A stretch of DNA of 64,000 nt, from the NCBI GenBank assembly GCA_031082125.1, contig JAVHLM010000002.1:124001-188000 (forward strand), written 5' to 3'. The position numbers and the translations under genes are program-made. The DNA is from Candidatus Eremiobacterota bacterium (GTDB taxonomy: Bacteria; Vulcanimicrobiota; CADAWZ01; Ess09-12). Under the pieces are notes generated by a model. That model worked only from the letters and a program-made list of their open reading frames with translations, searched no databases and was not told where the DNA came from. Every line of letters starts with the position of its first letter. Position 1 is the stretch's first letter. This document shows positions 3,021-14,925 of this stretch, one piece after another.

Positions 3021-6000
3021 TTACTTCCAGTCTCCTATCATGATGAAGGGAGCCCAGTGGAAGGGGAGGGGATATTCTTTGATGAGCCTCACCTGGGCCT
3101 CCCTGAGTGCCTCGTCTTTTCCTGTGCTCCTGGCGAGGGCCTCGTAGAAGTACCCCATGAGCTTTGCCGTTGATTCGTCGGCGACGCTCCAGAGCGAGGC
3201 CAGGACAGTAGGAGCCCCGCAGTAGATAAGGGTCCTTGATATGCCTATCATATCGTCACCGGAGGTGATTCTTCCCAGGGCCGTCTCGCAGGCCGAGAGC
3301 GTGGCAAGGCGGCAGTGCCCGAGATTTATCGAGCCCAGATCGTTCAGGTTCATTACTCCGTCGCAGGTGGCTATGCCCGAGAGGAGTGGATTGCGCTCAT
3401 TAAGCACCCCATGGGTGGCAAAATGAAGATAGGAGGCTCCCGGTGCATATTCCCTCACGGAATCCCTCGTGAACTCCTTCTCTTCTTTCAGGGAGGCTGA
3501 CGGGAAAAGAGCTCCCAGCTTCTCCACCTCAAGCTTTGTTGCGGGAAGAGGGCTCATCGAGCCCACCTTTTCATTCCCCAGGGCGAAGGCTACCAGGTGT
3601 GCCGACCCTGGCGGCGCTCCCGGCCTTTTTCTTATCTCCACAAGGACCGATGCCGAGGGAAGCGTGACAATGGTGCGGTCCATGACAAGGGGCTTCCCGC
3701 TGCGGTCCAGAAGGGCCGAAAAAGGGAGATTGTTGAGAAAGCGGTGGGGCACTATCACCAGTCTTTTTGCTTTCTCGAAGAACGGCTCTGCCGGGGCGAT
3801 GAGAAGTGCATGGAGCTCGGAGAGCTTCTTCTTGACCATGGCGGAGCTTTCGGGGAGCTTTTTTTCGGCGTCGCGCCTTATAAGGCTTTTCGCGTCATTG
3901 GTGAGAGACCGGAGGTCTCCATGGTTTTTCCCGATGACCTTTGCTTCCATCCCATGGCGGGTGATTATGAAGAGAAAGGTCTCCCGGGCCTCCACGTAGT
4001 AGGCAAGCATCACGGTATCGTCATCGAGGTCCTCCTGAATCGCCGCCAGGGAGGCGGGCTTGACAGCCTTGGTGTGATAGAGTCGCTGGTTTTCCATATT
4101 AAGAATCGCGAGGGCTTCCTGGTATTTCGCGTAGTACTGGTCGATATAGGACTTGGGGACTTCGGGAGGCGCCAGGATGGAAGATCTGCCCGCGAAGGAG
4201 GCGCTTCTTTTGGTTTCGGGAGCCCCTGTGGGGGCGAAGGCCACTTCAGCGCCTGGAAGCACGGGAGAAATGCCGGCCATGGCTTCCCCCGGAGGCTTTG
4301 AAAGAGCATTCAGGAGCCCCTCATATTCTCTCATCCCTTCCATGAGTGACACCATCTTTTCCCGGACCTTTCCCCCCGAAGGCGCAGGCCAGAAGCTCCT
4401 GCCCACGGTCTGCAGAAAAGCCCTCGCCCGGTCTCTTTCACTGAGGCCGAAAGCCTTCTCTTTTTCATTTTTCCTGAGGAGAATCCTTATGGTCCCTCCG
4501 TAGGGGGACTGTAAGGATTCTGAGAGCTCCAGAAGCTTTGCCTCGCTCTTGATGGTTCCGAGAAGCTTTTCAGAGAGCTTGATAGCCTCGTCATAATAAT
4601 CAAGAGCTTTCTGGTAGCATTTCTCCGCTTCGTCCGGGAGCTTCTGGGCTTTCCTGTCTCCTTCCTTTTCTGCGAGAAGTCCCTGATCACTGAGATTGGG
4701 CACCTGCTCGAACACCCTGTAGTGGAGCCTGTCAAAGGCGCTCTTTTCCCTGAGTAACGGGGCTATGGAGTCGTAGTCCTCGACTGCAGAGTAATATAAG
4801 ATGATATTTTTGAGAATCTCGCTCTTCTGGCGGATATTTGACTGGCTGGCGCTCAGGTTCCGGAGTGTGTTGACGATCTCCCCGGCCTTTTGCCTGTCTT
4901 TGTTCCTGCAATATACACGGAGGAGCCTTTCGTTGATTTTCACCGAGAGGTTCGGAGCATTAACCACAAGTTTCTCCGCATGGAGGAGCTTTTTCTCCGC
5001 ATCTTCCAGGTCTTCCCGTTCAAAGGCGAGATCGGCGAGCCCGATAAGTATGTCCCCGGAGAGTTCCGGGTTTCTCAGGCGCTCTGCCTCTTTTGAGGCT
5101 TTCTCCAGCAGGGCCTGAGCCTTGTCAAGATAGGCCATGTCGTACTGCCAGAGGCTTGTAAGCTTTCCTGCCACAGCCAGCGAGAGCAGGATATTGATTT
5201 TCACCTCACCTGCCTGCTCGCTCAGGGCAAGAGCCTCACTGGCATAGCCGAGCAACAGCTCGGGACTTAGCATGTCGGTACCCGAGCTCATGGAGAGCAG
5301 GGTCATGAGGTACGTCACGATAAGGCGGAGGTTCCCTGCCTTTCTTGCTTCTTGATAAAGGCGGTGGAACTCGAGCGCCGATTCCTCAAATTCATTTTCT
5401 TCCCCGAGGATCTTCGCCTCGGTGAGGCGGCACTGCCAGAGGCCCTCGCGGTCTCCGGTCTTTTCGAACAGGGCCCGGGCCGATGAAAGGTGTTTTCTTG
5501 CCTTCGCGGCATTTCCCAGGTTGAGAAGGATTATATCGGCGAGATTGAGCGATGCCTGGGCGGCGTCGCCCACAAGGCCCCGGCTGGCAAAAAAGCGGGC
5601 AGCCTCTTCCATGAGGGAGAAGCCTTTTTCAGGATCCCCCAGTATGAGAAGGTAATAGCCTATTGTGTACTGCGCAACTCCCCTTTCTCTTTCCAGGCCC
5701 TTTTCTTCAGCGAGGTCAAGGGCTTTCCGGTAGTACGCAAGGGCTTCGGGGGAATGGCCGCGGTTCTTGTAAAGGTCGCCGATGAACTGGAGCACCATCA
5801 CTATCCCGCGGGGATCATCAAGCTCCTCGTAAATGGCGAGGGCCTTCCGGTACTCCTTCTCGGCGGCGTCCATGTCGCCCCGGTGCCAGTAGGCCATGAA
5901 GCCAATGTTCACCAGGTCGGAAGCCTCGCCTTTCCTGTAGCCCAGGCTCCTGTTGAGGGAGAGCGATGCCTCATAATGGGCCTTTGCCTCTTCTATCCGG

Positions 6001-7547
6001 GACATGTGCTCGCAGCATCCCCCAAGCGCTGTTTCTAAAAGGGGGAGGCGCAGCCGGAGCCCCCCGGATTGAGCTTTTTCGAGGGCCTGCTTGAAAATTT
6101 TCTCGGCGCCGGGGGCGTCACCCCTCGCCATGGCCAGCGTGGCAAGGCTTTCTAGGGCGCTCAGGACTCCCTCGCGATAATTAAGGGCAGTGCTGAGCGC
6201 CAGGGCTGCTTTCAATGCTTCTTCTCCGCGGGCTCCGTCGCCCGTCGCGGCGAAGAGATTTCCCAGTGAAACAAGGGCATAGCAGGCTTCAGACACCAGG
6301 GCTGGATTCTTTGCCGCATCATAATAGGCGCAGGCTTTGAGAAGGGGCGCCACCGCCTTCTGGTAATCTCCCAGGAAATACCATTGCACGCCCGTATAGG
6401 CCTGTATCTTTGCCTCAAGAGCCCTGTCACCGCTTTCAGCGGCAAGCCGGAGGGCTTTCTCGTAATCCTGGAAGCCTTGTTCCGCCTGGCACCTCTCAAA
6501 GGCGATGTCGCCGGCCATGAGAAGGGCCTTTGCTTCCCCGGGCCTGTTCCCTGAGGAGGCATAGATGGCCCGGGCCTCTGCCGCCTCCTGAAGGGCTTCC
6601 TTCACTTTTCCCAGGGTGTGGAGAATCGTGGCCCTCTTGAGATGCAGCCCGGCTTTTTTCTCTCCGTTCTTCTCGCAGGCCGCAAGCGCCTTTTCATAAG
6701 CTCCCAGGGCTTGCGTGCCACGGCCGAGCGAAAAAAGAGTCTCGCCTTTCGTCTCGAGGACCTGGGCCTCCGTCTCCTTGTCAAGGGGGAGGAGCAGCGC
6801 CTTTTCCAGGGGGGCGAGCCCTTCCTCCTCCCTGCCGAGCATCGCGAGGGTATTTGAAAGCTGAACAAGGGCCAGCCCATAAAAGTGAGTGTTATCCGTT
6901 TTTCCCAGAAGCTCTGCGGCCTTTTCCGCCGTAGTGAGGGCTTTTTCATACTTTCCCTCTAAAAAAAGAGAAGAGCTCCACGTGAGGCAGGCGGCCCCCT
7001 CTTTCATTGTATCGCCTGCACGCTGGAATGATAAAATGGCCGATTCCATGGCTTTGTCAGCATCGGCGGCTCTGCCTGATGCGCGGCACAGGAGTGCGTA
7101 CTGGAATTCCGCCGCGCCGGCATAGAGATGCTCCTTCTCTGCCTTAAGAAGCCTCCCGCTCTCCTCAAGGTCTTTTTCTGCCTCGCTGTTCTGCTGTTTT
7201 TCCTTCCTCCACGATCCCCTTCTCAGCAGCGTGACCCCCACTCCCCATGCGTCATTGCTGCTCCTGAACAAGGCGAGGGCCTCATCCCATGCTCCTTCCG
7301 GTGATTTCCCCTCCGATGCCGCCGCCTGGCCTTCCAGGAGCTTAAAGTAGGGAAGCCAGGGAGCCTCACTGCCATGGGCCGCCTTCATTGAGGCGAGGAA
7401 GGCGGCTCCTCCCTCCAGGTCTCCCGAGAGAATGGTTTTCAGAGTCTTTCTTGTGAAGTCCCGGGGATCTTCCGCCGTGGCCCAGGCAGAGTGAAGCAGA
7501 AGGCAGAGCAAGATAAAGATGGCTCCAAGCAGACTTTTAAAAGTCAT
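3021..7547 (-). CDS. Exported TPR-CHAT protein (caspase-like C-terminal domain)
   Basis: About 1508 residues. A signal peptide (MTFKSLLGAIFILLCLLLHS, cleaved near AWA) is followed by more than 20 tetratricopeptide-like helical hairpins (about residues 30-1000), a linker, then a C-terminal CHAT domain. The CHAT block starts near LVIVPHRFLNNLPFSALL; its probable catalytic His is in FATHG (about residue 1379) and Cys in LSACETALG (about 1420). CHAT domains are clan CD cysteine-peptidase relatives of caspases; TPRs usually recognise a partner. The start at 7547 gives a clean signal peptide; an ATG at 7565 is also in frame. It overlaps the upstream small gene (7537-8100), so translation is probably coupled. 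Substrate is unknown; the co-directional macroglobulin-like gene suggests a shared extracytoplasmic role. Confidence 0.9.
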   Translation of the reverse strand: MTFKSLLGAIFILLCLLLHSAWATAEDPRDFTRKTLKTILSGDLEGGAAFLASMKAAHGSEAPWLPYFKLLEGQAAASEGKSPEGAWDEALALFRSSNDAWGVGVTLLRRGSWRKEKQQNSEAEKDLEESGRLLKAEKEHLYAGAAEFQYALLCRASGRAADADKAMESAILSFQRAGDTMKEGAACLTWSSSLFLEGKYEKALTTAEKAAELLGKTDNTHFYGLALVQLSNTLAMLGREEEGLAPLEKALLLPLDKETEAQVLETKGETLFSLGRGTQALGAYEKALAACEKNGEKKAGLHLKRATILHTLGKVKEALQEAAEARAIYASSGNRPGEAKALLMAGDIAFERCQAEQGFQDYEKALRLAAESGDRALEAKIQAYTGVQWYFLGDYQKAVAPLLKACAYYDAAKNPALVSEACYALVSLGNLFAATGDGARGEEALKAALALSTALNYREGVLSALESLATLAMARGDAPGAEKIFKQALEKAQSGGLRLRLPLLETALGGCCEHMSRIEEAKAHYEASLSLNRSLGYRKGEASDLVNIGFMAYWHRGDMDAAEKEYRKALAIYEELDDPRGIVMVLQFIGDLYKNRGHSPEALAYYRKALDLAEEKGLERERGVAQYTIGYYLLILGDPEKGFSLMEEAARFFASRGLVGDAAQASLNLADIILLNLGNAAKARKHLSSARALFEKTGDREGLWQCRLTEAKILGEENEFEESALEFHRLYQEARKAGNLRLIVTYLMTLLSMSSGTDMLSPELLLGYASEALALSEQAGEVKINILLSLAVAGKLTSLWQYDMAYLDKAQALLEKASKEAERLRNPELSGDILIGLADLAFEREDLEDAEKKLLHAEKLVVNAPNLSVKINERLLRVYCRNKDRQKAGEIVNTLRNLSASQSNIRQKSEILKNIILYYSAVEDYDSIAPLLREKSAFDRLHYRVFEQVPNLSDQGLLAEKEGDRKAQKLPDEAEKCYQKALDYYDEAIKLSEKLLGTIKSEAKLLELSESLQSPYGGTIRILLRKNEKEKAFGLSERDRARAFLQTVGRSFWPAPSGGKVREKMVSLMEGMREYEGLLNALSKPPGEAMAGISPVLPGAEVAFAPTGAPETKRSASFAGRSSILAPPEVPKSYIDQYYAKYQEALAILNMENQRLYHTKAVKPASLAAIQEDLDDDTVMLAYYVEARETFLFIITRHGMEAKVIGKNHGDLRSLTNDAKSLIRRDAEKKLPESSAMVKKKLSELHALLIAPAEPFFEKAKRLVIVPHRFLNNLPFSALLDRSGKPLVMDRTIVTLPSASVLVEIRKRPGAPPGSAHLVAFALGNEKVGSMSPLPATKLEVEKLGALFPSASLKEEKEFTRDSVREYAPGASYLHFATHGVLNERNPLLSGIATCDGVMNLNDLGSINLGHCRLATLSACETALGRITSGDDMIGISRTLIYCGAPTVLASLWSVADESTAKLMGYFYEALARSTGKDEALREAQVRLIKEYPLPFHWAPFIMIGDWK

Positions 7548-8100
7548 ACTTCTCTTCCATGACATATCCTGTATGGAGGTTCACCTTGCGGTACCCCCGC
7601 GAAATTGTAGTGGAGGCCTTTTCTCCCTGGGTGAGCTTTGAGGTATGGTGAAATGTTTTTTCTATGAAGACCTTCCCTTTGGACAGAAGCCTGTCTTCAG
7701 TTCTCTCGACGTAAGTGGTGGCCATGGCGAGCTCGCAGGCAAGGCTTTCCGGGAGTCCCTCCTCGCCGGCATCATCTTTTTCGAGCGTGAAGGAGCCCGC
7801 GAGCTCGGTGGCTATCCTGCTGGTCACAAGCTCCTTTCCCCTGGAAAAGCTCCCTTTTTTTATCGTGAGAATTGCGGCGGCATTTGTTATGCGGTACGGC
7901 TCGGTAAAGATGCCCTGGAGGGAGAGATGCCTGTCAATGACAAGGTCGTCAAGAAGAGAGAAGCCGTCTCCTTCAAACTTTACCTTCGCAGGAACGCTTT
8001 CGCCCAGGTATTTGATGATGCGCGCGAGGTTCTCAAACTCTGAAAGCGTGAAGGGATCGCTTTCTTTTGCTTTTTTATCGCTCCGGCCCTGTTCGCTCAT
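7537..8100 (-). CDS. Hypothetical protein between A2M-like and CHAT genes
   Basis: 187 residues, not recognised. No signal peptide or membrane helix, and the first 15 residues are polar and Lys/Glu-rich. The rest alternates short hydrophobic and polar stretches, as in a beta-rich domain, with a repeated theme of acidic and aromatic residues towards a C-terminus ending EEKYDF. The start at 8100 is chosen because GGAGGA stands three bases upstream; the longer frame reaching 8235 would overlap the macroglobulin gene. It lies 67 bases after that gene and overlaps the CHAT gene by about 10 bases, so it is probably the middle member of a three-gene unit. It could be a cytoplasmic adaptor or regulator, but nothing in the sequence proves this. 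Confidence 0.75.
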   Translation of the reverse strand: MSEQGRSDKKAKESDPFTLSEFENLARIIKYLGESVPAKVKFEGDGFSLLDDLVIDRHLSLQGIFTEPYRITNAAAILTIKKGSFSRGKELVTSRIATELAGSFTLEKDDAGEEGLPESLACELAMATTYVERTEDRLLSKGKVFIEKTFHHTSKLTQGEKASTTISRGYRKVNLHTGYVMEEKYDF

Positions 8101-8167
8101 TGTTCCTCCGATATCTCTATTCTTCCTGGGGTATTCTTCTTCCTTTGTGCCTCCCGGCGGGGATTCC

Positions 8168-11100
8168 TCAGCGCACGGTGAGCCTGATGCCGGGAGCGCT
8201 TGCTCCCCGCCAGGGATCCTTGTACTCATAGGCATAGGCGGCCTGCGTGGTGATTTCCACAGGGTAGAGAGCCTTGAGGCTGAGCGGGAAGGTAAGGGAG
8301 GTGCCCTTTTTTATGGCGCTGATATAGAGATAGAGGTATCCCGGTGTTGCCACTGAGGCCTCTATTTTCCCGGTGCGCTTCATCTGCTCCACCCCGCTGG
8401 GGAGCAGGGAAAAGCCGGGGGGGATGGGCAGCCTTATGACTACGAGGGGAATGTCGCTCTTTCCTCTGTTGGAGAGAGTAATTTTCTCCTCGACGCTGCT
8501 GCCGGGAGAGACAAGGCCTTTGTCGGCCCTGAGAGAGAGCTTGAGCCCCGCGGGGCTTTTGTTCCCGGCGTCCCTGGAATAGCTTGCCGAGACCTCGTAG
8601 AGGGCTCCTCCCGTATTCCTTGCAATGACATGGAGGTCGTTTTTCCCGTAAAGAATGCCCTCGGAGAAGTCCAGGATCTCCTCGCTGCCGCCGCCTGCCT
8701 GGCTCGTCATGGCCATGTTCTTCAGGATATGGCCGTTGAAAAGCACCGAGGCTTTCACCCTGGTACCCGCCCTGCCGGAAGGCTCGCCGGCAAGAAAGGT
8801 CTTCAATGCCTCGACTGTCGCGGAGGCGGAATGCCACGTACCTTCGGGGTCCCGGGCCTGCGCGAGGAAGGCGAGGGCTCCCGCAGAGCTTTCAGGGTGC
8901 GTTCCCTGGGCCATGAGCACCCGGGTGCAGAGAGCTGTTGTTTCTATGTCGGCATGGATGCCCGGCAGCGTTGAGAGCGTGCCGATACTGGTGCTCCAAT
9001 AGCAGGCATTGCCGGATCTCTGGGCCTGTCGGTAAAGGCGCTCGGCGATATCCACGGGGAGTGTGCCCTCGGCAGCGGTGAGTGCCATGGCGAAAAGGGC
9101 AAGGGTAAGGGGATCGGCATTCTTTCTCAGGTCGGCCTTCAGGTGGCGCAGCCCCCTCTGGACCTTGCCATGCTTTCCCTTTCCTGCCTTCGCGAGTGCC
9201 ATGATGACAAGTGCCGATGTGGAGGGATTGTTCTCCCATGAGCCGTCAGGTTTCTGGGAAGAGATGAGCCATCGGCAGGTCCTCTCACGGAGTTCATCGT
9301 CAATGGCATGGAATTCAGAGATATCGACAAGATCCGACAGAATCTGGGCAGAAAGCCACACAGACGGAGGCGACTCCCTGAAAAGGGCGAAGCCTCCTCC
9401 TTCGCGCTCAAAGGTGAGGAGCTTCTGATATCCCACTGAGAGCTCGTCATCGCAGAGCGTACGGTCCTGTTTTTCCCCGATCCGGGCAAGGTGCCTGAGC
9501 AGAAGGTATCTCGTTGAGGCCGATGCCCTCACCTCGTCACAGCTCTCCGACGGGAGGCTCCCGAGAACCATTGAGGCCCTCTCGATGAGGGCTCTGTTTC
9601 CCGGAAAAATTGAAAGGGAGCCCTGCATGGTGTGCGCCATGGCCTTATCGGGGATCTCAAGGGTGGCATGGAGGTCACCCTTGAGCCACCCGCTCCTGGT
9701 GAGATATTCCCTTGCACCTGGATTGAGGACCTCTATGGTCTTTCTGAGGGTCTGGGCGCTGGAGCCGGAACGCGCCGTGAGGGAGAAGCTCTGCTGGCCC
9801 TGCCGGGCTGCCAGGAATTCCATCATGATCTGCCTTTTTTCTCCGCCGTCAAGCACTGTCTTATAAGGCAGAGTCCCGGTGAGCTCAAGCCCTCCTCCCG
9901 CGGCGAGCTCGAGAAAGAGGCGGAGAGGCCTCGTGGTGCAGTTGGTAAAGGTTACAGGGAGTGAGATCCTGTCGCCGCAGGTAAGGAAAGGCGGCACCGG
10001 GGCATCAATGAAGAACTCCCTTGTGAGGGCAATCTCCCTGGAAGCGCTGCCCTGCTGCCCCTGCCGCGTATAGCCCCGCGCCTGGATGGTGAGATTCCCC
10101 GGGGCTTCAGGCAGGAAGAAAGAGAAATTTGCGTTTCCATACCTGTCGGTGGGCACTTCAGGACTGCAGGCAAAAGTAATGCCGCATGGGGTGACGGTCT
10201 CAGGAGGTTCTGCGGTTTTCATCGCCTCCGGGGTTTTTCTCCCTTCCTCTCCCTGCCCGGAAGGCTTCATGGCCTTGCCTGCCATGGCAAGGCTTGCCCT
10301 GTGACCCTTCACAATGCTGTCTGAATGGGCAAAGATGAGATACAGGGCGGCAAAAGCTGCACCTATGACGATAAGGGCGCTCCCGTGCCAGGCCAGGGAG
10401 CGGGCTCTGGATTTCCTGGGTCGTGCGAGATGGGAGAGCGTAGTGAAAAGGAGCAGGAAGGGCATGGCAAAGATGGTGAGAAGGGCGCAGAGGATGAAGG
10501 GGGCGTTGTCCTGAAGGACGGCTGCGGCGTTCCATTGCCTGAGAGAGCATATGAAAAGGAGTGAGATGGAGATGATGAGGGTCCCGGTGTACCACTCCAT
10601 GAGATGGACAATGTGCTTCAGTGTGGCAAGGTTCCGCACGGACTCGAAGCGGGAGTCTCTCTTCAGCGTCATCAGGTATATGAACATGAGGAATATCTCC
10701 ATTGCCATGAAGAGCTGGAATAGAGAGTTCCTGTGGAGGCTTACAAAGTCTGTTCCCGAAAAGAAGAGGAGCGCGCTCGCGAAGAGTGCGGGAGCAAGGA
10801 GGAGAAGATAGAACCCCACTATGAAGATGATGATGCCGGTGATCTCGTAGTTCTCCCTGAGGACAAGGCACTGGCCGGTGCCTTTTGCTTTATCGAGGCC
10901 ATGGAGATAGGTGAGCACCAGGATTGCCAGGGTGCAGGCCACGAGGAAAATGAGCATGAGCCTCACCACGGCGGTGAAAAGTACCGAGAAATAACGGATT
11001 TTCCTGTCATAATTTGACCGGAGCGTGTTCTGAAGAAGGTTTTCCCTTTGAATTCCGTTATCCTGGGTGGTGCATAGTGAAAAGACCACGCGGGCCTTTT

Positions 11101-12988
11101 TCTGGAGGGACTCGCTGGAGAGGGCCCCGGTGCCCTGGGCCGTGGCCTGTGCCACCTCGTCTGCAAGGGCCATGGGACCGAAGCTCTGGGGTATCCTGAA
11201 GGGAAGGGCGGAAGGCCGTCCGTCCCTCTGATTCTTGAGGAGCATGGTGAGGGCGCCATACAGCGGCCTGCCTTCCCTGGTGCTGAGCCTCACCTTGACG
11301 CTTGCCCGTTCCCCCGGGTAAGAGGATTCCGTGTCGGGCTCAAGGTCAACCCTGAGCGGCTGGGAGGGGACGATGAAGATTGTCTGGCCAGCCTTCTCAA
11401 TGGCGCCTTCAGAATCAATCCGGGTGGCTTCAATAGTGGCTATCCCTCTCAGGTGATGAGGGATGGCCAGGTCGCACGAGGCTTTCCCGTTTTTCACCCA
11501 CATGGTGGCGCTCCGCTCCAGGTTGCCGCCGCTTGTGAGGTCCAGAAAGATTGTGCCTTCTTTGTCAAGAGCCTGCACATGGACCGGCACCTTTTCCCCG
11601 GCACGGAGCACGACGCGATCCGGTGAAAGGGTAAAGGTATGGGATGCCGCGGGAGATGAAGAGTCAAAGGGCACTTCGATGGTGGTTCCCCTGCTGTCTT
11701 CGACTCTCACTTCCGTGATGGTGCCGGCCTCTTCAATGGGATCATAGCTTATCACGGCGATACCCGATGAATCGGTGGTGAGTCTCTCTGTTCCGTGAGC
11801 CAGCTTTACGGTGAGCCTTGCTTTCACCGGCGCGCCGTCGGGGGAATAGCAGACGATGAAGAGCCTGTTTCTGAGGCCCGGCACCAGGAATCCCGATTCA
11901 GGAATAAAGGTGACGGCGCAGGGTTTCTCGCCGAGGGGAATCCTGCGCTGCACTGATCCCCTCCTGCCCTGGGGATCGGTGAAGGAGCAGCTCAGCACAA
12001 GAGCTCCCATGGCGCTTCCCAGGCCTTCGGGAGCGATGCGCTTCGGGAGCGTGATGCTGAAGGGAAAAGAGCCTGAAGAACCGGTGACTCCCTGGAGCTC
12101 ACTCAGGGGGATGTGGGTTTTCTCCGATTCCATTCCGCACTTCAAGACCACGTCTCTTCCCCCTTCGGGGATACCGGGCGCGGTGGTGACCTCCACGACA
12201 CCCTTTACCTGTTCCCCGGGAAGGTAGAAGGGGCGGTCGGTGGTGATTGTGGCCATGGTGGCGCATTCGGGGAAGGATCCCACGATGACGGAAGCCACAC
12301 CTTCCGCGGGTTGAGCGGAAACTTTGATGGTATAGGTGCCCATGATCGTGGAATCCGCAAGGGTGAACACGCAGTGCACAATGCCGCATTGCGAGGCGAC
12401 TCTCTTGATGAGGGCCACCCTTGTGCCCTTGGGATTCAGCACGGTGATCTCTGCAGGGCGGGATGCGAGGGGCTTCCATGTAGAGGAGTCATGGAGCGCC
12501 GCCTGTATAAAAATCCGCTCTCCTGGCCGGTAAGAGTCCTTGTCGGTAAATACTTCCACGGCAACGGGAACCGTGACGGGGATCTCTTTATGAAAACTGC
12601 TGGTTCCCTGGGGAGAGCGGATTACCGCCGCAAAGGTGAGCTCATTTTCCGCTACATCCTGGGGCACGGTGAAGGTCATAGTCGCAAGCCCTCTGGAGTC
12701 CGTTCTTCCCTCGGCAGAGGCTATTTTTTTTTTAAATTTTGTCTGGAGCACGAGAGAGACTGAGGCATTCTCGATGGGCCTGTTGCCGGAGTGCTCTCTT
12801 ACGGCGACCCTTCCCTCATAGGAAAGCCCCGGGTTCACCTGAGAAGGGAAAAAAAGAAAGGCCTCCTGGTCGCCGGAAAGGTAGCTGGAAAAGGTGATGA
12901 AAAGCGAGTAAAGGATAAACAGGACAAAGCCAAAAGCCCCAAGGACTCTTGCCCCTCTGCTGAGGCTTGCAAGACCATGCTGGTTCAT
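8168..12988 (-). CDS. Alpha-2-macroglobulin-like protein with internal membrane domain
   Basis: 1606 residues. One N-terminal membrane helix (about 14-38) is followed by macroglobulin-type beta domains, including an MG2-like YRPGERIFIQAALHD. About six membrane helices follow (residues about 665-900), then a canonical A2M block (FFIDAPVPPFLTCGDRISLP), an alpha-toroid thioester-type domain and a C-terminal beta domain. Six inserted helices would return the second half to the periplasm. The thioester motif CxEQ is degenerate: the Cys is kept (C1150) but the run reads CDEV, so no Gln is available for the thioester. Bacterial A2Ms usually trap proteases; this one may act without a thioester. The start at 12988 avoids reading through the hairpin at 13011-13052 and into rplY. 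Same direction as the CHAT gene. Confidence 0.87.
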   Translation of the reverse strand: MNQHGLASLSRGARVLGAFGFVLFILYSLFITFSSYLSGDQEAFLFFPSQVNPGLSYEGRVAVREHSGNRPIENASVSLVLQTKFKKKIASAEGRTDSRGLATMTFTVPQDVAENELTFAAVIRSPQGTSSFHKEIPVTVPVAVEVFTDKDSYRPGERIFIQAALHDSSTWKPLASRPAEITVLNPKGTRVALIKRVASQCGIVHCVFTLADSTIMGTYTIKVSAQPAEGVASVIVGSFPECATMATITTDRPFYLPGEQVKGVVEVTTAPGIPEGGRDVVLKCGMESEKTHIPLSELQGVTGSSGSFPFSITLPKRIAPEGLGSAMGALVLSCSFTDPQGRRGSVQRRIPLGEKPCAVTFIPESGFLVPGLRNRLFIVCYSPDGAPVKARLTVKLAHGTERLTTDSSGIAVISYDPIEEAGTITEVRVEDSRGTTIEVPFDSSSPAASHTFTLSPDRVVLRAGEKVPVHVQALDKEGTIFLDLTSGGNLERSATMWVKNGKASCDLAIPHHLRGIATIEATRIDSEGAIEKAGQTIFIVPSQPLRVDLEPDTESSYPGERASVKVRLSTREGRPLYGALTMLLKNQRDGRPSALPFRIPQSFGPMALADEVAQATAQGTGALSSESLQKKARVVFSLCTTQDNGIQRENLLQNTLRSNYDRKIRYFSVLFTAVVRLMLIFLVACTLAILVLTYLHGLDKAKGTGQCLVLRENYEITGIIIFIVGFYLLLLAPALFASALLFFSGTDFVSLHRNSLFQLFMAMEIFLMFIYLMTLKRDSRFESVRNLATLKHIVHLMEWYTGTLIISISLLFICSLRQWNAAAVLQDNAPFILCALLTIFAMPFLLLFTTLSHLARPRKSRARSLAWHGSALIVIGAAFAALYLIFAHSDSIVKGHRASLAMAGKAMKPSGQGEEGRKTPEAMKTAEPPETVTPCGITFACSPEVPTDRYGNANFSFFLPEAPGNLTIQARGYTRQGQQGSASREIALTREFFIDAPVPPFLTCGDRISLPVTFTNCTTRPLRLFLELAAGGGLELTGTLPYKTVLDGGEKRQIMMEFLAARQGQQSFSLTARSGSSAQTLRKTIEVLNPGAREYLTRSGWLKGDLHATLEIPDKAMAHTMQGSLSIFPGNRALIERASMVLGSLPSESCDEVRASASTRYLLLRHLARIGEKQDRTLCDDELSVGYQKLLTFEREGGGFALFRESPPSVWLSAQILSDLVDISEFHAIDDELRERTCRWLISSQKPDGSWENNPSTSALVIMALAKAGKGKHGKVQRGLRHLKADLRKNADPLTLALFAMALTAAEGTLPVDIAERLYRQAQRSGNACYWSTSIGTLSTLPGIHADIETTALCTRVLMAQGTHPESSAGALAFLAQARDPEGTWHSASATVEALKTFLAGEPSGRAGTRVKASVLFNGHILKNMAMTSQAGGGSEEILDFSEGILYGKNDLHVIARNTGGALYEVSASYSRDAGNKSPAGLKLSLRADKGLVSPGSSVEEKITLSNRGKSDIPLVVIRLPIPPGFSLLPSGVEQMKRTGKIEASVATPGYLYLYISAIKKGTSLTFPLSLKALYPVEITTQAAYAYEYKDPWRGASAPGIRLTVR

Positions 12989-13010
12989 TGAATGTCTGCT
13001 TTCCTCTACT

Positions 13011-13052
13011 GACACATAATAACCAGGGATCTGCTGGTTATTATGATGTGTC
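13011..13052. repeat. Long imperfect inverted repeat between rplY and the A2M-like gene
   Basis: The arms GACACATAATAACCAG (13011-13026) and CTGGTTATTATGATGTGTC (13034-13052) pair over 16 bp with a 3-base bulge and a 7-base loop. There is no clear T-tract on the minus strand, so it is more likely an RNA-processing site, weak terminator or protein-binding palindrome in the rplY-A2M junction than a strong terminator. Confidence 0.6.
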
Positions 13053-13076
13053 AGGTATGCCGTGGTATCCCGGTGA

Positions 13077-13754
13077 TTATTTTCCCTTCTCTTTCTCTTC
13101 CTTGCCCTTCTTGATGACCTCGGGCTGGGAAGCCGATCCTGCCGGGGCCGCCACCGCTGCAGCCGGGACCTCCCCTTCGGGAGTCTCCTCAGCGCGCGGT
13201 GCATGGACTACTGCCACAATCTCCCCGGGATCGTTGGTGATAGTGATATTTTCATCCTTCGGGATATCCTTGATGGTGAATTCGTCGCCTATGTCAAGGT
13301 GGGAGACATCAATGACAATATTCTGCGGTATGTTGAGAGGCAGGGTCTCGATCTCGACGTTCCAGAGCACATGCTCCATGACGCCGCCCTTCTTGGCTCC
13401 CTTGGGATCGCCTTCAAAGTGGAGGGGGATGGTGGCCGTCACCTTGGTATCGAGGGAAATCTTGTGGAAGTCCACATGGAAAATCCTGATGCCCAGGGGG
13501 TCCCTCTGCACTTCCGATATCATTGACAGATGGGTGTTTCCGCCATTTCCCGCTATTTTCAGCTCAACGAGGGCGTTGTAGCCCGCTCCGATTGCCACCA
13601 TCTTCCTGAACTCCTTGTCCGGGATCTCAAGCGCGACAGGAGAGGTTTCCTTCCCATAGAGCACCGCAGGGATATATCCTGTTCTCCTGATTTTCTTGCA
13701 GTATTCCTTGCCGGTTTTTTCTCGAAGTCTTGCTTCAAGCAGTACTTGTTTCAT
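13077..13754 (-). CDS. rplY: 50S ribosomal protein bL25 (CTC/TL5 form)
   Basis: 225 residues, the long two-domain form. The N-terminal RNA-binding domain (about 1-95) starts VLLEARLREKTGKEYCKKIR with the typical YGK...PVALEI strand, and binds 5S rRNA. The C-terminal TL5/CTC beta-domain (about 100-185) contains PLHFEGDPKGAKKGGVMEH. It ends in an Ala/Pro then Lys/Glu-rich tail. It lies 11 bases after prs in the same direction; prs-rplY is a common bacterial pairing and they are very likely co-transcribed. The hairpin at 13011-13052 follows its stop codon. Confidence 0.95.
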   Translation of the reverse strand: MKQVLLEARLREKTGKEYCKKIRRTGYIPAVLYGKETSPVALEIPDKEFRKMVAIGAGYNALVELKIAGNGGNTHLSMISEVQRDPLGIRIFHVDFHKISLDTKVTATIPLHFEGDPKGAKKGGVMEHVLWNVEIETLPLNIPQNIVIDVSHLDIGDEFTIKDIPKDENITITNDPGEIVAVVHAPRAEETPEGEVPAAAVAAPAGSASQPEVIKKGKEEKEKGK

Positions 13755-13765
13755 TGGGTCCTCCT

Positions 13766-14839
13766 CTAGTCAAAGAGCTTGCTTACTGAGAGATTATAAA
13801 AAATCCTTCTGATGGTCTCACCCAGAAGGGGAGCCACCGAAAGGGCGGTAAACTTGCCACGCTGCGCATCAGGGGGTATGGGGATCGTGTCGGCCACGAC
13901 GACCTCTTCAATGTCGGAGCTCTCAATGTCCTTGATGGCATTCCCCGCGAGAAGGGGATGGGTGGCGCAGGCATAGACCTTCTTGATCCCGTGTTTCTTC
14001 AGGGTTTTGACACCTTCTATCATGGTGCCTCCCGTGGAGATCATGTCGTCAATAATGATGGCGGTCTTTCCCCTCACATCGCCTACAAGGTCGATGGCCT
14101 CGGCCTGATCGGGCTTGAGCCTCCTCTTGAAGATGATGGCAAGCGATGCCTGGAGTTTGTCGGCAAAAGTCCTCGCGCGGGCCACGCCTCCCGCGTCGGG
14201 CGACACGATGACGAAGTCGCCGTTGAAGAAATTCCTCTTCTTGTAATAGTTTACAAGGATGGGAAGAAACATGAGGTTGTCAACGGGGATGTCAAAGAAG
14301 CCCTGGATGGCGGCGGCATGAAGGTCTATGGTGATGACCCTGTCAACGCCGGCGACGCAGATGAGGTTGGCCACGAGCTTTGCAGAGATGGGCTCCCTCC
14401 CTGACGTCTTCTTCTCCTGCTTGGCGTAACCATAATAAGGCACCACTGCGGTCAATGTCTTGGCTGATGCCCTCTTGACGGCGTCGATCATAAGCAGGAG
14501 CTCCATGAGGCTGTCATTCACGTTGCCGCACGTGGGCTGCACAATATAGACATCCTTGCCTCTCACGTTCTCGTTGATTTTTACCCGCGTCTCGCCGTTG
14601 GTGAAAGTGGTGACGAGAGCCTTGCTGAGGGGAAGCTGGAGATACTGGCATATGTCATAGGCAAGCTGAGGGTGGGAGTTTCCCGTGAAAATATTCACGT
14701 TGCTCCCCACGAGGGAATATTCATCCCGTTCCTCTTTTTCGGCGATGTTGAGAAGCTTCTTTTCTTCCTGGAGCATCGTAAGATTTCTCCCTGTCTGTCT
14801 TGCGTCCGGCTCTCCCGCCTTTTCGATAAGCCCTCTCAT
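13766..14839 (-). CDS. prs: Ribose-phosphate pyrophosphokinase (PRPP synthetase)
   Basis: Makes phosphoribosyl pyrophosphate from ribose-5-phosphate and ATP for nucleotide, His and Trp synthesis. The core begins at NVNIFTGNSHPQLA and shows FTNGETRVKI, the flexible-loop/ATP region YYGYAKQEKKTSGREPISAK, the ribose-5-phosphate region DLHAAAIQGFFDIPVDN and the PRPP loop AIIIDDMISTGGT. With the start at 14839 (GGGAGG five bases upstream) the protein is 357 residues, about 40 longer at the N-terminus than usual Prs. A later start at MLQEEKKLL would shorten the excess. The predicted promoter at 14926-14954 lies just upstream, and rplY follows after 11 bases. Confidence 0.96.
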   Translation of the reverse strand: MRGLIEKAGEPDARQTGRNLTMLQEEKKLLNIAEKEERDEYSLVGSNVNIFTGNSHPQLAYDICQYLQLPLSKALVTTFTNGETRVKINENVRGKDVYIVQPTCGNVNDSLMELLLMIDAVKRASAKTLTAVVPYYGYAKQEKKTSGREPISAKLVANLICVAGVDRVITIDLHAAAIQGFFDIPVDNLMFLPILVNYYKKRNFFNGDFVIVSPDAGGVARARTFADKLQASLAIIFKRRLKPDQAEAIDLVGDVRGKTAIIIDDMISTGGTMIEGVKTLKKHGIKKVYACATHPLLAGNAIKDIESSDIEEVVVADTIPIPPDAQRGKFTALSVAPLLGETIRRIFYNLSVSKLFD

Positions 14840-14925
14840 GGTAACCTCCCTCTCGGCAAAAGTCAAGAAGTCACTCAAAAGGTATGGGTGTGAGACTCTT
14901 CCTTCCCCCGCCAGCAGGTCACCCT

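Follow-up and report, generated by a model that had tools for sequence, protein, structure and literature searches.

The gene described here lies on the minus strand of the window (the whole stretch of Candidatus Eremiobacterota DNA that was analysed, 64,000 nucleotides) and encodes a 1606-residue protein, P0001, of the alpha-2-macroglobulin (A2M) superfamily. Its open frame is unbroken from 8168 to 13204 on the minus strand, and the ATG at 12988 is the likely start; the interval given for this gene in an earlier note on the same DNA, 9500-12988, lacked the C-terminal third. The features of the locus are listed below, with residue numbers referring to P0001 (MG, macroglobulin domain; AF2, AlphaFold2; KD, Kyte-Doolittle).

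3021..7565, minus strand: TPR-CHAT protein with a signal-peptide-like start, overlapping the 188-aa open reading frame (PF12770, E 1.9e-63)
7537..8103, minus strand: orphan open reading frame of 188 aa, downstream of the A2M gene and probably co-transcribed with it (no Pfam match)
8168..12988, minus strand: six-helix A2M gene (P0001, 1606 aa), stop included (single open frame; Pfam MG2, MG4, A2M and TED)
8216..8539, minus strand: C-terminal Ig-like (DUF11/MG8-type) tail, residues 1484-1591 (weak DUF11 match, E 0.057)
8798..9463, minus strand: TED (alpha/alpha toroid), residues 1176-1397 (PF07678, E 4.5e-21)
9530..9541, minus strand: degenerate thioester site C-D-E-V, residues 1150-1153 (alignment to GCFEQ of relatives)
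9719..10183, minus strand: MG6 second half and MG7, residues 936-1090 (Pfam PF00207 at 944-1023; AF2; structural alignment)
10184..10327, minus strand: disordered bait-like outer linker, residues 888-935 (AF2 disorder 886-940; pLDDT 30-40)
10328..10384, minus strand: block helix 6, residues 869-887 (hydropathy, second scale, AF2)
10442..10498, minus strand: block helix 5, residues 831-849 (hydropathy, second scale, AF2)
10547..10603, minus strand: block helix 4, residues 796-814 (hydropathy, second scale, AF2)
10667..10723, minus strand: block helix 3, residues 756-774 (hydropathy, second scale, AF2)
10778..10834, minus strand: block helix 2, residues 719-737 (hydropathy, second scale, AF2)
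10913..10969, minus strand: block helix 1, residues 674-692 (hydropathy, second scale, AF2)
10970..11038, minus strand: conserved juxtamembrane helix (..RxxxYF..L), residues 651-673 (profile comparison)
11039..11368, minus strand: MG6 first half and linker, residues 541-650 (AF2 strands, C5 beta chain alignment)
11369..12880, minus strand: MG1-MG5 beta domains, residues 37-540 (Pfam MG4/MG2; AF2 pLDDT mostly 80-95)
12890..12946, minus strand: N-terminal membrane anchor, residues 15-33 (KD 2.36; AF2 helix 7-36)
13077..13754, minus strand: rplY (L25/TL5), upstream (Pfam; syntenic with G004/L045, 39% identity)
13766..14878, minus strand: prs, upstream (Pfam; syntenic with G004/L045, 67% identity)

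Both the chain of MG domains and the TED fold of the A2M superfamily are present in P0001, as indicated by Pfam matches above cut-off (MG4 at 48-127, MG2 at 146-229, A2M (PF00207) at 944-1023, and TED at 1176-1397) and by structural Z scores of about 20-25 to C3, C5, and A2M. The domain order is taken from the model for MG1-MG7, from Pfam for TED, and from a single weak DUF11 match for the C-terminal MG domain, in a tail that aligns with the A2M_recep region of the paralogue P0003. By sequence, the nearest solved structures are A2ML1, E. coli YfhM, and CD109. The signal peptide plus lipobox cysteine of a bacterial-lipoprotein A2M is lacking: no lipobox cysteine lies near the N-terminal anchor, and the first 200 residues contain no cysteine at all. 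Of the neighbouring genes, prs and rplY are found in the same order ahead of the A2M gene in G004, while a search of 37 other genomes returned no relatives of the 188-aa open reading frame. The TPR-CHAT protein is possibly an exported caspase-like protease. Neither it nor the 188-aa product adjoins the A2M relatives, and a role as conserved partner of P0001 is not supported for either.

Hydropathy analysis identified one N-terminal helix and six further helices at residues 674-887 (nt 10328-10969; Kyte-Doolittle peaks 1.65-2.85), bearing out the earlier note, which had placed about six helices at roughly 10290-10995. Six helices were also called in the block on the Wimley-White octanol scale, and 300 shuffles of P0001 gave at most 4 such segments per 216-residue stretch, compared to 6 in the real protein. 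An AF2 model of residues 1-1110 (alignment of 38 rows; mean pLDDT 72.8) is helical at 651-701, 707-744, 749-777, 787-818, 822-854, and 871-885, with low to moderate confidence in the block (pLDDT about 43-80). The Longilinea arvoryzae relative L073, which was modelled as well, displays the same domain order, with pLDDT of about 80-85 for most block helices and a disordered linker preceding the second half of MG6. The earlier note had proposed structural modelling as a check and had named two findings that would undo its reading, a frameshift fusion of two genes and a soluble core misread as helices. The block is helical rather than a soluble core in both models, which rules out the latter, and a frameshift fusion is likewise ruled out, given that P0001 is encoded in one frame and that the same single-frame order recurs across many independent genomes of several phyla.

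The suggestion, also made in that note, that an even number of helices would put both A2M halves on the same side of the membrane is upheld by the positive-inside rule and by relatives with a cytosolic N-terminus. Over the 18 proteins in which six helices were called, lysine and arginine make up 15.4% of residues in predicted cytosolic loops versus 5.4% in predicted outer loops, and 17 of these proteins show the expected sign; further, the cytosolic zf-HC2-type domain found ahead of helix 1 in relatives fixes the N-in topology independently. One plus six helices bring the P0001 chain back to the outer side, such that both halves are predicted to face outward. Nearly all proteins that contain a real block have an even number of block helices, either six or two, and isolated single-helix calls in relatives are mostly a hydrophobic MG6 strand. 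Pfam yielded weak, sub-cut-off matches to the helix block and assigned it to no family, NCBIfam returned nothing useful, and one residue is invariant in the block across six sequences, with no invariant polar or catalytic residues. Taken together, the architecture and topology of P0001 are well supported.

The location of the block can be defined more precisely. In the AF2 model, the first half of MG6 comprises strands at 545-551, 561-570, 578-586, and 646-650, and beta strands restart at residue 941 after the disordered linker. Residues 40-1092 of the model align to complement C5b (Z 24.6, rmsd 4.9, 701 residues aligned), and the model also aligns to C3, CD109, A2ML1, and E. coli A2M (Z 22.4 for the last); within the PDB structural alignment, residues 20-657 of the C5 beta chain match residues 40-653. 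The beta chain of C3 and C5 ends inside MG6, directly ahead of the anaphylatoxin, and the bait region of human A2M occupies the same place in MG6. It follows from this anatomy and the C5 beta-chain alignment that the six helices fill the bait/anaphylatoxin slot within MG6. The L073 model can be aligned through its block with C3 559-935 and CD109 555-855, and Foldseek and VIA searches with it returned only A2M/complement chains among the matches listed. The earlier note had described the helices as splitting the N-terminal MG domains from an A2M/thioester-type half; six helices do stand between the two halves in the model, but they lie inside MG6 and are no generic inter-domain spacer.

Other insertions were observed in the same slot. 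In helix-free A2Ms it is filled by a T2SSG (pseudopilin-like) domain (L067:4546-5355, E 3.4e-8), with a further T2SSG match below cut-off in the bait slot of L071:9603-10412 (E 8e-4). The MG6 slot is therefore an insertion site that takes a bait, an anaphylatoxin, a pseudopilin-like domain, or two or six membrane helices. By eye, prepilin-like motifs (PNFLRAR, LLPALAKAKARAQ) can be seen at the end of the final block helix in L037, L066, L086, L107, and L136; a prepilin/pilin relation of this helix is unsupported by Pfam.

Bacterial A2Ms have been described as periplasmic traps that are either soluble or held by a single anchor (PMC4498604, PMC5764988). Type I proteins (E. coli YfhM/ECAM, Salmonella SaA2M) resemble P0001 in their MG domains, split MG6, and TED, as well as in their location on the outer face, tethered to the inner membrane, and P0001 matches 4rtd, 5a42, and 4u48 of this type by sequence, with structural Z scores of about 21-22. 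They differ from P0001 in having a disordered bait, a CxEQ thioester, extra N-terminal MG domains, and a single anchor with no internal helices; the corresponding slot of P0001 holds six helices and a disordered linker of ~48 residues (AF2). At the thioester position P0001 carries CDEV (Cys1150) rather than CxEQ, such that the thioester implied by the earlier note is absent, whereas its own paralogue P0003 keeps GCFEQ. P0001 is thus a polytopic, thioester-free alpha-2-macroglobulin.

Absence of CxEQ is shared with the type II protein MagD of Pseudomonas aeruginosa, which is periplasmic and membrane-associated and which traps protease without a thioester (PMC5764988). However, MagD obtains its transmembrane helix from MagB, encoded in the six-gene mag operon, whereas P0001 carries its membrane part within the bait slot itself, and its neighbours (glmU, prs, rplY, the orphan open reading frame, and the TPR-CHAT gene) do not form a mag-type operon with MagB. 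Complement C3 and C5 also accommodate a whole extra domain, the anaphylatoxin, in this MG6 slot, but the insert of P0001 is a membrane bundle that is not freed as a peptide. CD109 and A2ML1, which are among the best structural and sequence matches of P0001, have an intact bait and thioester. CD109 is membrane-tethered as well, though by a GPI anchor (PMC5889571).

The block architecture is old and common to relatives in several phyla. It is conserved in about 16 relatives and, among 149 genomes from the phylum of P0001, is present in 5 (the genome of P0001 itself, three of the same order, and G007), with six block helices in P0001, G000:C35, G001, G002, G004, and G007. The paralogue in the same genome (G000:C35; contig 35, L037) combines the block with an intact GCFEQ thioester. 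A scan of named genomes identified the block in Chloroflexota (L063, L064, L065, L069, L072, L073, L111, L125, and L137), including the cultured Longilinea arvoryzae, and it is also found in Planctomycetota (L086), Verrucomicrobiota (L093, L107), Lentisphaerota (L122), and the G007 record (L066). The two-helix form is common, and dominant in planctomycetes. When a tree was built with the block left out, proteins of the same helix class grouped together far more than under shuffled labels; P0001, P0002, and P0004 fall into a single long-branch group (99) whose exact position in the tree is unsure. In profile comparison of the transmembrane blocks, the helix that enters the block (..R...YF..L) is the sole part clearly common across lineages, while the block helix sequences drift freely between phyla. 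On these sequence comparisons, a single origin of the block is plausible.

In G007, a stand-alone membrane protein of ~200 aa that is homologous to the block is encoded at L055:1773-2375, and its reading frame overlaps a thioester A2M gene at the end of the latter. The coding sequences of two A2Ms with helices (L090:7908-12874, L120:7725-12973) are each divided between two overlapping frames, due to either sequencing error or frameshift. In a Lentisphaerae genome, the six-helix A2M is followed by genes that by eye appear to be type II secretion/pilus F-like (L122:12871-17493).

The thioester position of the relatives presents a further feature. Eight related A2M genes from seven genomes have an in-frame TGA at the thioester cysteine codon (L064:3772, L069:4753, L072:6209, L111:5224, L133:11154, L085:3897, L085:10579, and L051:8117, the last from the phylum of P0001), in the context GGC TGA TT[TC] GA[AG] CA[AG], that is, G-U-F-E-Q. 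Past the TGA, the frame remains open for >470 codons in the six genes traceable to a stop, and the RNA just 3' of the TGA folds tighter than in 73 cysteine homologues (-11.0 vs -7.1 kcal/mol). Among the six genomes checked, a set outside which the L051 genome falls, tRNA-Sec scored over cut-off in all six and SelB was found in five, the sixth having a partial SelB. The UGA at this position therefore probably encodes selenocysteine, giving a putative selenoester A2M; four of the UGA A2Ms are six-helix proteins.

Many helix-bearing A2Ms are also linked to ECF sigma genes. Such a gene lies upstream of 17 of 26 helix-bearing A2Ms versus 1 of 36 A2Ms without helices, in a scan of every locus that had 500 or more upstream bases, with an HMM built from the same set. 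The corresponding Fisher p of 6e-8 ignores phylogeny, with most of the signal coming from the two-helix planctomycete clade. L133, the single helix-free exception, also has the anti-sigma-like N-terminal domain. All of the upstream open reading frames tested are ECF sigma factors (Sigma70_r2 and r4_2 in 14/14), these having been picked because they preceded helix-bearing A2M genes with long N-termini, and a cytosolic zf-HC2 domain was detected in 7 of the 16 A2M N-termini tested. Six-helix A2Ms with an adjoining ECF gene are L086, L093, L122, and L125; most Chloroflexota members with six helices are without an anti-sigma domain. An anti-sigma-like N-terminus together with an upstream ECF gene was noted at L076, L086, L088, L093, L094, L099, L103, L106, L109, L114-L116, L122, L125, L132, L133, L136, and L138. 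Relatives such as L125, L086, and L093 share with ECF/zf-HC2 transmembrane anti-sigma pairs the customary arrangement of cytosolic domain and sigma gene, but have a whole A2M as their outer sensor. The ECF-linked A2Ms apparently constitute an undescribed class of transmembrane anti-sigma factor. Literature searches, with most subscription journals outside their coverage, returned no description of an A2M with a multi-helix block, of a link between A2M and anti-sigma factors or ECF/zf-HC2 pairs, or of selenocysteine at an A2M thioester.

Given this pairing (17/26 vs 1/36), a sensor role is well founded for the family. In P0001 the cytosolic domain was lost or never present, about 14 cytosolic residues preceding helix 1, and the adjacent upstream gene is rplY rather than an ECF sigma gene. 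The membrane-embedded sensor proposed in the earlier note is accordingly well founded for the ECF-linked relatives, while P0001, without an anti-sigma domain or sigma neighbour, may be a sensor by analogy with them.

P0001 would sense or trap envelope proteases as a membrane-embedded A2M. The explanation that we consider best, and to which we give roughly even chances, is that the linker is the trigger and the helix block passes on or resists the movement, with the signal leaving through a partner or ending in a non-covalent hold on the protease; we infer each of its steps. A protease or similar envelope insult would cut or pull the exposed linker, and the A2M scaffold would rearrange, as known A2Ms do upon bait cleavage (PMC4498604). 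Because the slot is welded to the membrane, this movement is proposed to be transmitted to the helix bundle and to the N-terminal helix as well. The sigma factor would thereby be freed in the anti-sigma relatives; P0001, lacking the anti-sigma domain, would act on a membrane partner, or may just keep the protease bound non-covalently, as MagD does in spite of having no thioester. With about 14 cytosolic residues and no adjoining sigma factor in P0001, the sensing step is borrowed from the relatives.

Alternatively, the block could be a strong anchor that holds a type II, thioester-less trap flat on the inner membrane, much as MagB serves MagD, with no signalling. P0001 agrees with this in having neither anti-sigma domain nor sigma neighbour, in having lost its thioester as MagD has (PMC5764988), and in retaining a disordered bait-like linker (AF2). 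Yet its single N-terminal helix already provides an anchor, and the block sits in the mechanically decisive slot, has six or two helices, and tracks with ECF/anti-sigma pairing; we regard pure anchoring as possible but doubtful, and signalling through a partner as somewhat likelier. That the A2M halves gate a functional membrane module (channel, transporter, or enzyme) is suggested by the stand-alone block homologue of G007, located directly after a thioester A2M gene, but the block has no invariant polar or catalytic residues and no Pfam family, and its helix sequences drift between phyla, making such a module unlikely. An artefact, whether frameshift fusion or misread soluble core, finds no supporting point in P0001 and is contradicted by the recurrent single-frame order and by both helical models, so that we consider it exceedingly improbable.

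If the preferred signalling explanation is extended to the family, these proteins might, tentatively, form a widespread receptor class in which the bait has been replaced by a membrane bundle, cleavage of the linker pulls on the membrane, and an ECF sigma factor is freed; P0001 would then be a thioester-free, signalling-only descendant with a changed output partner. A trap whose trigger region is a membrane bundle, together with the recurrent ECF pairing, would make a signal receptor out of an immune-type protease trap, and such a family would render the use of A2Ms by bacteria outside the Proteobacteria testable.
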